From a virus, in the IMG/VR virus record IMGVR_UViG_3300042294_002854, positions 1 to 22,311 of that record: DNA of 22,311 bases; one strand, written 5' to 3'. This document shows, piece by piece, positions 8,155 through 20,284 of the stretch. How positions within the stretch are numbered: position 1 is the stretch's first letter; every line of letters starts with the position of its first letter. The translations under genes and the position numbers were made by a program. The notes beneath the pieces were generated by a model. That model worked only from the letters and a program-made list of their open reading frames with translations, did no database searches and was not told where the DNA came from.

Positions 8155-8163
8155 TATAAATAT
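8155..8163 (-). promoter_or_regulatory. ATATTTATA element before the 74-residue gene
   Basis: Exact ATATTTATA on the coding strand, 19 bases before the ATG at 8135. The leader that follows is A-rich (CTAAAACAACAATAATAAA) and has no Shine-Dalgarno sequence. One of six exact copies at nearly constant distance from a start codon in this window. Confidence 0.55.
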
Positions 8164-8168
8164 TAAAA

Positions 8169-10535
8169 TTAAGCAGATCTATATGATTTTTGAATTAATC
8201 CGGTTCCTACTGATTTAGAATCTAAATGAACATCCCATGATTTATTCTTTAAATCAGTAACAGCTGCTGTTACTTGATTAATTGCGGCAATCATTGGAGA
8301 TAAATCTATAGATTGATTATTATTTATGCGTGGGGATGTATCTAATCTATCACCTGATTTGTTTTGGGTAATATTTGGAGATACTGCTAGTTTATCACCA
8401 GCCGCGGTAATTGCTGTTTCTCCATATTTATTTGTTATTTGGAATGGACCTCCTGAAGTTGCTACACCATCTCCTACAGATTGAGATTTAGCATCTGAAT
8501 TAGCAGATTTCATAGCTCCATATACAGTAGCAATTCCAGCGGCAATTGCTAATGCCATTACTCCAAATGAAAGAGCAGTAGCTAATGTTGAAGCTGCAAT
8601 AGCAGATCCTGTTAAGCTGACAAACATGCTTGCTAATCCTAATAACATCTTACCTAATGAAATGCCAGCTATAAGAGTCATAGTTCCATAAACAAGTCCA
8701 GTATGTTTAGATAAATAACCCATAGCATCTACTAGTCCCTTAAAAGGACCATCTAGTAAATTAGCAAGTGTTGTTTTTAAATTATTAAAAGTAGCATCTA
8801 ATTTTTCGGCCGCTGATTGTTGTTGAAGATTTACTACTAAAGAATCAGATTCAGATAAACCTCTTTCTCTAGCTATTTGTAATTGTTCCGCTGCTGATTT
8901 ACCAGATATATCTCCTAACTTGTTAAATGTTTCTTGTTGGGTTAACATCTCTGCTAATTCTTCTCTACTCATTCCAAACGCTTGTGCTAATGATCTTTGA
9001 CCAATAACATTCATTTTTTCAAAATCAGCTAAAGAACCTACTTGATCTGCTATTTCTTTAGTTAAGGTAACTTGATCCCCTGTTAAAGCAGCATAGCGGG
9101 CTTTTTCTAAATTAATTTGTTTTCCTGTTACTAATTCTGCTTTTAATTCGTTTTCAATAGATGATTGAAAGTCAAGTAAAGATTCGCCAACTTTATCTAC
9201 TGCTTCTAAATTTGTACCTAATGCTTTTGCTTGGGCCACAGCCTTAGCTAATGCTTCTGGATTTTGTTGGAATTTACTTGTTATACCAGCACTAAGTTTT
9301 CCTATTTCTTGGAATACTTGTTTAGCATTTATTTGAACTCCTGTAGATTTTTGAGCAGCTATTATACCAGCAGAAATTGATTTGTTGGTGTCTTTTAAAG
9401 TTTTATTATTTAAAACACCAAATCTGTATATTTGAGTTGCTTCTTCTACTGATAACCCCATTGTTTGGGTCATCTTAGTAAATTCATTAACAGTACCTTG
9501 ACTTAAAGTAACAGAAAGTCCTAATTGACTATTAACATCAGTTAAACTTTTAGCAATTTGTTCAGAAGAATAAACATTTTGATTTAGACCGTCATTAAAT
9601 ACAGATTGAGATTGTACAGCCTCAATTGTAAAATTTTTAACTTGATCTCTTGAAAGTCCTAAATTTCGAGCGGTCCCAACAATAGCAGTATCAAAACTTT
9701 TAAAAGCTTCAAACGCCATTTTGATATAACCTGTTAATTCACTAAATCCTTTTTTAGCTAAACCTAACCCAACAGCAAATCTTGCTACTGGGTCTTCCAT
9801 AGCTTCTTTGAATCCTGCTTTAGCAATCCTAAATAGATCTCCCAATCCAACTTTACCATCATTAGCAGTTTTTCTAAGTTCACTATTTATATTATCTAAA
9901 ATTACACTACTAATTCCAAACTTTTGTAATTCCTTAGAAATAAGTTTAAATGCATTTCCTGTTAATCCTAAATTATTATTAATTCTTTTTTCATTATCTA
10001 TTATTTTATCAAACTCCTCATTGATTTGATTTAAATAATTTACTTGAACCTCAAATCCTTCCTTTATTTCTTTTTGCTGATCTTCTAAAAGTTTACGTTG
10101 TTTAGCTGTAAGATCATTCTGTTGTAGTGCCTCTTTAATATTATCTTGTTTAGTTCTAAGTGACTCTACTTCTATCTCAGCTTTCTTTTGTAAATCAGAT
10201 AATTCTTTAACAGTTAATATATTAGTACCATCGACATGTTGTTGAACTTTAGCTGTTATACTACTTAATTTGTTATATGATGCATTAATAGAATTAATTA
10301 ATTTTCCTGCAGAATTAAAATCAGATAATGTATTTTTTAATATTGAGGATATAGATCCAAATGCATTTCTAATATCATATATATCACTTGATAATATTCT
10401 TATTGCTCTTGAAATACCTTCAATATCATCGGGCATTTGCTCTAATGCTCTGCCCCCTAATGATCTTAATTCATCATTAAGTTGTTGAAATTGTTGTCTA
10501 AGATTATTAATTTCTTCTGGGGTAATTTCAGCCAT
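8169..10535 (-). CDS. Tape measure protein
   Basis: A 788-residue protein located after tail tube and tail assembly chaperone genes, the standard place for the tape measure. The N-terminal 200 residues are a long Gln/Asn/Glu/Lys-rich coiled coil, with a second helical part at about residues 300-560. Residues about 612-675 form a strongly hydrophobic Ala/Gly/Leu-rich segment (LIAGISLGKMLLGLASMF and following), as tape measure proteins have. The C-terminus is polar and Gly/Asn-rich. Such proteins set tail length and help DNA cross the host membranes; by the usual rule of about 0.15 nm per residue, this would give a tail near 120 nm. The ATG lies 20 bases downstream of an ATATTTATA element that follows a terminator. 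Confidence 0.85.
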   Translation of the reverse strand: MAEITPEEINNLRQQFQQLNDELRSLGGRALEQMPDDIEGISRAIRILSSDIYDIRNAFGSISSILKNTLSDFNSAGKLINSINASYNKLSSITAKVQQHVDGTNILTVKELSDLQKKAEIEVESLRTKQDNIKEALQQNDLTAKQRKLLEDQQKEIKEGFEVQVNYLNQINEEFDKIIDNEKRINNNLGLTGNAFKLISKELQKFGISSVILDNINSELRKTANDGKVGLGDLFRIAKAGFKEAMEDPVARFAVGLGLAKKGFSELTGYIKMAFEAFKSFDTAIVGTARNLGLSRDQVKNFTIEAVQSQSVFNDGLNQNVYSSEQIAKSLTDVNSQLGLSVTLSQGTVNEFTKMTQTMGLSVEEATQIYRFGVLNNKTLKDTNKSISAGIIAAQKSTGVQINAKQVFQEIGKLSAGITSKFQQNPEALAKAVAQAKALGTNLEAVDKVGESLLDFQSSIENELKAELVTGKQINLEKARYAALTGDQVTLTKEIADQVGSLADFEKMNVIGQRSLAQAFGMSREELAEMLTQQETFNKLGDISGKSAAEQLQIARERGLSESDSLVVNLQQQSAAEKLDATFNNLKTTLANLLDGPFKGLVDAMGYLSKHTGLVYGTMTLIAGISLGKMLLGLASMFVSLTGSAIAASTLATALSFGVMALAIAAGIATVYGAMKSANSDAKSQSVGDGVATSGGPFQITNKYGETAITAAGDKLAVSPNITQNKSGDRLDTSPRINNNQSIDLSPMIAAINQVTAAVTDLKNKSWDVHLDSKSVGTGLIQKSYRSA

Positions 10536-19036: not shown

Positions 19037-19048
19037 TTTGTAACTTTG

Positions 19049-20284
19049 TTATTTGTTATAAATATAATTTTCTGATTTTTTTGTAGTATTTGTTACTGAT
19101 TTAATGGTATTTAAGACATCTTTATCTACCAAATCTGGGTGTACCCACCAATCTTCAAATGGTGAATCATCATCTGGAGATATATTATCTACAGCTAATT
19201 CATATCCTTTAGATTCTAGGTATCTTCTTGATTTATCACGATATGATTTAGTTTCATCACAATAATAATCATGTTCATATGTTATTACTGCAAATCTATA
19301 TTCTTCAAATGGAATTTGTAATAAGGTTTTAAATGTGTTATAAGATGGTTCACAATCTAACTGTAAGTAATCCCAATCATTTCCCCAATTTGTATCGCTT
19401 AATATTGTATCATAATTAGCAATCGTAGCATCTTGTAATAAACAAAAATTATTCCTTGTACCATTAAATTTATTTACTAAATTACTATCAATTTCTAATG
19501 ATATGCCTTTCCAATTAAAATCTTTTTCTAAAATATAAGTATTAGAATTATCAATGGGGTCATTTGCCCCAATTTCTAAATATTTTCCATTTGTTTTTCC
19601 ATCTAATGCCATTAATACAAACATGTCTTGAAAAACTTGTGATTGGTTATTTTTTATTTTTTCAACTCCTTTAAATTTAAATCTTAAATTATCTAATTGA
19701 GTATAGTCATAATATGATGGTTTTATCCAATCTTCTGATCCCACTAAAAAAATAAGATTTCTTTTTACAGAATCTATATAATCATAAGATATAACTTCAT
19801 TATGATGTAATTCTAAAAATAAATTTAAAGATTCATCCATACTTCCTAACCACCACGAACATACAGCTTTTTCAAATTTAAAACCCCATCGACCTGGGTA
19901 TTCAACATCAATTAATATTTCTGGTTCATCTGTTGCTAATTGTTCACCTATAGTAGATATAGTATAACTTTCTTGCCAATCTTTATTTCGTTCATATAAA
20001 CGAGAAAGTAAAAAATATGCTTCAGGACGTTTTGGTGAATGTGATATAGCATGCAGATATAATCCTTTAACTGAGAATATGCGATTATTTTGTTTTTCTA
20101 AACATAATCCAATTCTAAGTAATGATAAATAAATTAAATCACTATCTAATTCAGTTACTCTTAAATAATAAGTTAAAGCTGATGCTGTTTGATTTTGATC
20201 ATAATATGAATTAGCTAAATTAAATATAGCTTTATCATTGTATGGATCTTTTATAAATTCAGTTAATGTATATTGGATATTCAT
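19049..20284 (-). CDS. TPR protein fused to FkbM-like methyltransferase
   Basis: A 411-residue two-part protein. Residues about 1-130 contain TPR-like helical pairs (AIFNLANSYYDQNQTASALTYY, then AYFLLSRLYERNKDWQESY), usually protein-binding. Residues about 213-385 match an FkbM-type SAM-dependent methyltransferase: SQVFQDMFVLMALDGK, the SAM-binding YLEIGAND, LEKDFNWKGISLEID, DYLQLDCEP, ITYEHDYY and FEDWWVHP. FkbM enzymes methylate sugar hydroxyls or small molecules. The gene is last in a tightly overlapped operon, joined to the GH130-like gene by ATGA. It could modify a glycan on the virion or the host surface; substrate unknown. The promoter-like element for the next gene lies inside its last codons. 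Confidence 0.75.
   Translation of the reverse strand: MNIQYTLTEFIKDPYNDKAIFNLANSYYDQNQTASALTYYLRVTELDSDLIYLSLLRIGLCLEKQNNRIFSVKGLYLHAISHSPKRPEAYFLLSRLYERNKDWQESYTISTIGEQLATDEPEILIDVEYPGRWGFKFEKAVCSWWLGSMDESLNLFLELHHNEVISYDYIDSVKRNLIFLVGSEDWIKPSYYDYTQLDNLRFKFKGVEKIKNNQSQVFQDMFVLMALDGKTNGKYLEIGANDPIDNSNTYILEKDFNWKGISLEIDSNLVNKFNGTRNNFCLLQDATIANYDTILSDTNWGNDWDYLQLDCEPSYNTFKTLLQIPFEEYRFAVITYEHDYYCDETKSYRDKSRRYLESKGYELAVDNISPDDDSPFEDWWVHPDLVDKDVLNTIKSVTNTTKKSENYIYNK
19057..19065 (-). promoter_or_regulatory. ATATTTATA element inside the end of the FkbM gene
   Basis: Exact ATATTTATA on the coding strand, 20 bases before the ATG at 19036. It overlaps the last codons (Tyr-Ile-Tyr-Asn) of the methyltransferase gene, so it is constrained by both coding and signal. 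The leader reads ACAAATAACAAAGTTACAAA. Confidence 0.5.

Follow-up and report, generated by a model that had tools for sequence, protein, structure and literature searches.

A putative late promoter box, TATTTAT(A/T), and its candidate reader in T4-related phages of Bacteroidota

Introduction

Why should one short word recur 18–21 nt ahead of six start codons in a viral genome fragment? The window considered here, i.e., the whole analysed stretch of 22,311 bases from IMG/VR, is 69% A+T and carries a contractile-tail module in which all genes face one way. Sheath, tube, hub, baseplate and lysin genes are recognized by profile matches, and a probable tape measure gene is assigned by position. The window is syntenic with the 160-kb genome of Flavobacterium phage vB_FspM_immuto_2-6A (hereafter immuto). 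The shared order (sheath, tube, hub, small gene, tape measure, small gene, etc.) runs on as far as the gene with which the immuto record opens, that of the family A polymerase. The recurrent word had been proposed to be a phage-specific late promoter with very short leaders. We consider it quite probable that it is a late promoter of T4 style whose box, TATTTAT(A/T), has changed and is read by a diverged gp55-like factor, the immuto gp118 family. No description of this box was found in open-licence papers.

Some other genes of the window deserve mention. The 431-aa protein encoded at 18–1313 occupies the position of immuto gp001, annotated as a family A DNA polymerase, and has no match in Pfam or PHROGs; a second family A DNA polymerase of immuto (777 aa) is encoded at 37898–40231. 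Three tail-fibre-like genes at 14595–18442 contain long Thr-Pro runs, Gly-Thr-Asn collagen-like runs and repeated GSxxITGS units. The protein encoded at 21578–22186 matches both PHROG 274, named DNA endonuclease V (E 8e-35), and a 2OG-Fe(II) oxygenase family, and the PHROG name may be a mislabel.

The box in the window

Exact copies of ATATTTATA are found at 8155, 10556, 11622, 12199, 14576 and 19057, all on the minus (coding) strand and none on the plus strand. Their distances to ATG, when remeasured, were 19, 20, 21, 18, 19 and 20 nt, in agreement with the original prediction, and the relatives it had listed at 4, 14016 and 18494 are likewise present. The features are as follows, the RNA starts being predicted from T4 geometry.

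8155–8163, minus strand: putative late box ATATTTATA, 19 nt before the ATG of a 74-aa gene (7911–8135); predicted RNA start ~8149
10556–10564, minus strand: putative late box ATATTTATA, 20 nt before the probable tape measure gene (8169–10535); predicted RNA start ~10550
11622–11630, minus strand: putative late box ATATTTATA, 21 nt before the baseplate hub gene (10836–11600); predicted RNA start ~11616
12199–12207, minus strand: putative late box ATATTTATA, 18 nt before the tail tube gene (11692–12180); predicted RNA start ~12193
14576–14584, minus strand: putative late box ATATTTATA, 19 nt before a 75-aa gene (14329–14556)
19057–19065, minus strand: putative late box ATATTTATA, 20 nt before a 159-aa gene (18557–19036)
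14016–14024, minus strand: variant box ATATTTATT, 34 nt before the tail sheath gene (12227–13981)
18494–18502, minus strand: possible variant box ATATTTATG, weak, ~51 nt before the gene at 17498–18442
4–12, minus strand: possible variant box ATATTTATG, weak, at the window edge, the downstream gene lying outside the window
11639–11671, minus strand: terminator-like hairpin (15-bp), just upstream of the hub box
10567–10591, minus strand: terminator-like hairpin, directly upstream of the tape measure box
18511–18537, minus strand: terminator-like hairpin, upstream of the possible variant box at 18494

The association of boxes with terminator-like hairpins is mostly modest when compared to random intergenic positions and was dropped as statistical proof. 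The copy at 19057 sits within the final codons of the upstream gene, and some genes preceded by a gap (10574–10759, 14053–14319 and 18–1313) have no exact box in front of them.

With up to one mismatch allowed, ATATTTATA occurs 39 times in the whole window against 54.5 expected, and since such copies are not enriched, the signal consists of the exact word and its placement. Indeed, there are five intergenic coding-strand copies of the core TATTTATA against 0.47 expected under a Markov model and none in antisense, and the crude probability of all six boxes falling in the 18–21 nt zone is ~3e-15. De novo motif finding in the window's ten upstream regions returned ATATTTATat with a log-likelihood ratio of 24.2 (16–18 for shuffles), the margin being modest because the sequences are few.

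The box in related genomes

The proposal of a phage-specific late promoter is backed by whole related genomes, in which the box is intergenic, on the coding strand, ahead of virion genes and conserved in orthologues. A motif search over the complete immuto genome placed 24 of 30 coding-strand copies of TATTTATA between genes, although noncoding sequence makes up 4.8% of the genome and 1.95 copies are expected (Markov model). The corresponding intergenic counts in three large IMG/VR relatives, whose gene starts are ORF calls made in this analysis, are 20 against 1.45 expected (G001), 19 against 1.84 (G002) and 11 against 2.3 (G004). Genes downstream of immuto boxes include terminase, portal gp20, sheath, tube, hub and tape measure. 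A few immuto boxes are only 1–4 nt from the annotated start, which is too near to be that gene's promoter unless the starts are misannotated. In Microcystis phage Mel-JY01 the pattern is counted 25 times and the reversed-pattern control also 25 times, so this genome contributes one tube-gene site only. Mel-JY01 (PP395634.1) is among the closest isolates for sheath and gp118, and its reported cyanobacterial host is unexpected beside the flavobacterial relatives.

Comparison with T4 late promoters

Late promoters of T4 are read by gp55 together with the coactivator gp33 and the sliding clamp gp45. The T4 late box, TATAAATA, lies at −13 to −6 (PMC1524935). T4 gp55 contains a sigma-2 homology domain, and the promoters of T4 late genes are devoid of a conserved −35 element (PMC7892883), as expected for a single-box promoter. 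The element described here resembles them in being a single A+T box of 8 bp in a −10-like position, A-rich just downstream and accompanied by a phage-encoded sigma-region-2 candidate. The composition of 78 late sites, drawn from exact boxes so that its central positions are fixed by design, holds no information at −33/−35. The box stands before virion rather than early genes, late timing being deduced from gene function.

Neither TATAAATA nor NATAAATA but TATTTAT(A/T) is the box of this lineage, with a central TT (TATTTATA) where TATAAATA has AA. It had been noted that the T4 string lies on the opposite strand, facing away from the genes; TATTTATA is indeed its reverse complement, but when both are read in the same orientation they differ at the two central bases only. 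A separate, opposite-facing TATAAATA promoter was rejected: all window genes face one way, and coding-strand TATAAATA is neither intergenic nor enriched in G001, G002 and G004. The immuto coding-strand copies of TATAAATA partly derive from TATTTATAAATA, which also counts against a separate promoter. Drifted boxes read by diverged gp55 proteins are known, namely CTAAATA in Aeh1 and NATAAATA in cyanophages (PMC1524935; PMC2984593), and we read TATTTATA as a drifted box, like that of Aeh1, rather than an inverted promoter. In those phages the first positions are changed, whereas here it is the centre.

No gp45-type clamp (phrog_223; T4 control E 3e-86) was found in immuto, G002, two 160-kb relatives and partial relatives (G012 and G013 being among the genomes covered), and a DnaN-type clamp (PF02768) was not found either; a very diverged clamp may be encoded in this lineage. 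Because two T4 features, the exact box and the clamp, fail, the box is not classed among T4 late promoters, although its mode of action is very probably alike.

The candidate factor gp118

The late sigma profile phrog_234 picks a single immuto protein, the 232-aa gp118, with a weak score (E 0.008 per genome). The protein is annotated as hypothetical, and its gene lies outside the window fragment. At the sequence level its resemblance to gp55 is weak (hmmscan E 0.5; hhalign E 0.011, 4% probability). Pfam gave no match for gp118, no match to the sigma profile phrog_12791 was obtained, and a PDB sequence-profile search returned DinB-like matches only (E 0.13). An AlphaFold2 model built on 34 relatives (pLDDT 75) has no significant match in plain Foldseek. 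VIA-align, however, superposes its residues 10–121 on T4 gp55 from a polymerase open complex (7d7c_F; Z 10.3, 2.5 A, 104 residues), and nearly all other rows of the list are sigma region 2. The sigma fold is thus apparent in the VIA realignment only, and a helical bundle can reach middling Z. Compared to T4 gp55, gp118 is strongly diverged and longer, with extra C-terminal helices.

At all 71 distinct loci of the gp118 family the box is present at the next gene, 59 times as exact TATTTATA and 12 times as the one-change TATTTATT; the exact boxes lie 9–17 nt before ATG, and 1.7% of random windows hold an exact box. These loci are related and hence are not independent events. The 71 sites, for which best matches were used, give TATTTAT(A/T) with seven positions invariant. 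From the model and this linkage we infer that gp118 is a diverged gp55-like sigma-region-2 candidate for reading the box.

Another phage factor, such as an activator acting with host sigma or a phage-modified polymerase, might read the late box instead. gp118 is a predicted reader, and it was not detected in G001, G004 and the short distant (Shine-Dalgarno-using) contigs, all of them incomplete. In favour of gp118, the late sites have no −33 element, the predicted fold is that of sigma region 2 only, and a box accompanies gp118 at every locus of the family; a different factor appears unlikely.

Early promoters and the host sigma factor

Upstream of immuto genes, the words with the strongest enrichment form two classes, early and late. 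The early class is A-rich, followed by GTTG, ~20 nt and TATATTTAGGTATCAATAATTAAAACA (also written GTTG...TATATTTAGG), and it matches the −33/−7 type of Bacteroidota promoters (PMC6847099; PMC9723704), while the late class is TATTTATA alone. The region of 60–77 kb has 17 early sites and one late site, i.e., the box is nearly absent from the early-promoter block, and 79–160 kb has no early and 17 late sites (Fisher 4e-9). In the immuto record (NC_055915.1), most of the small early genes at 60–77 kb share a near-identical long promoter (A-rich, GTTG, TATATTTAGGTATCAATAATTAAAACA), which offers a useful collection of strong early promoters for Flavobacterium. In G002 an early-type class of its own lies mostly at 75–101 kb (gene-direction coordinates), ahead of that genome's sigma candidate at 106 kb. 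There, TTTCyTwATT followed by TAnnTTTA recurs upstream of many small genes and may represent early or middle promoters of this subgroup.

Could the late box then be a degenerate −7 element (TAnnTTTG) of host sigma-A, with the late genes served by the unmodified host holoenzyme? The window word TATATTTA does fit TAnnTTT, as had been pointed out, the immuto early promoters carry TATATTTAGG, and the polymerase core is probably the same host one. Only part of that fit stood: the core is TATTTATA, preceded by A or C, and over the 78 sites the TA ahead of it is unconserved, which sets it apart from the host sigma-A box, and G never follows TTT in the box. The preceding base is C in 69% of the 71 gp118-linked sites. 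TTG near −33, found in 19/19 immuto early sites, is absent from the late sites of the same genome. The late box thus departs from the host promoter in three respects, lacking the TTG at −33, a conserved TA two bases earlier and a G following TTT. TA..TTTG is not intergenic here and was rejected as a general promoter. Recognition by unmodified host sigma-A is therefore rather improbable.

Conservation and leader length

In orthologues of at least 60% identity the exact box precedes 41 of 42 tube genes, all 30 hub genes and all nine orthologues of each of the 74-aa and 159-aa genes. It is less conserved at the 75-aa gene (7 exact and 12 one-mismatch copies among 31 orthologues), whereas at the sheath gene 35 of 36 near orthologues retain the variant with a 7/8 match; TATTTATT takes the place of the box at 12 of the 71 gp118-linked sites as well. 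Shine-Dalgarno-like sites precede 61% of long ORFs in more distant relatives and 3% in near ones. In the former, which probably have other hosts, the box is still ahead of many tube and sheath genes but farther upstream, the median spacer being 42 nt for leaders with a Shine-Dalgarno site and 19 nt for those without. Its retention there also speaks against host sigma-A.

The tight 18–21 nt spacing in the window would suit a leader signal for translation initiation or RNA processing. Across genes and lineages, however, the spacing ranges from ~9 to 60 nt and tracks the presence of Shine-Dalgarno sites, a shift that is explained if the box fixes the RNA start but not if it is a translation signal, and two boxes directly follow terminator-like hairpins. 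A leader signal is thus very hard to credit. An A+T word might recur by chance in gaps rich in A+T, as the window composition and the unenriched one-mismatch copies suggest, but this reading is refuted by strand asymmetry and Markov-model enrichment in five genomes and by conservation in orthologues.

The preferred reading remains that of a promoter, and the role of gp118 as its reader, the precise point at which RNA begins and the expression of the box genes late in infection are predictions. Tentatively, in a large and mostly unannotated T4-related lineage a gp55-like factor may read TATTTATA without a gp45-type clamp, the box being kept across Shine-Dalgarno and non-Shine-Dalgarno hosts with leader length alone changing.

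Proposed scheme and its significance

In the proposed scheme TATTTAT(A/T) would be the −10-position box of late promoters in a lineage of Bacteroidota phages related to T4. The host RNA polymerase, carrying the host's sigma-A, would transcribe early genes from −33/−7 promoters. A gp118-family sigma-region-2 protein would then bring the core of that polymerase to the single late box, where no −35 contact would be needed. RNA would start ~6 nt downstream of the box, giving leaders of ~13–16 nt at the six exact boxes of the window; such short leaders would suffice, since translation in the host does not depend on Shine-Dalgarno sites.

This makes a complete and testable early-to-late scheme, with a host-type early promoter, a candidate sigma and a late box, for a widespread aquatic, largely flavobacterial phage group whose regulation is unannotated. 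The box would mark late genes in metagenomic contigs and offers a phage-specific expression signal for Flavobacterium. It also raises the question whether T4-style late transcription may proceed without coupling to the replication clamp.
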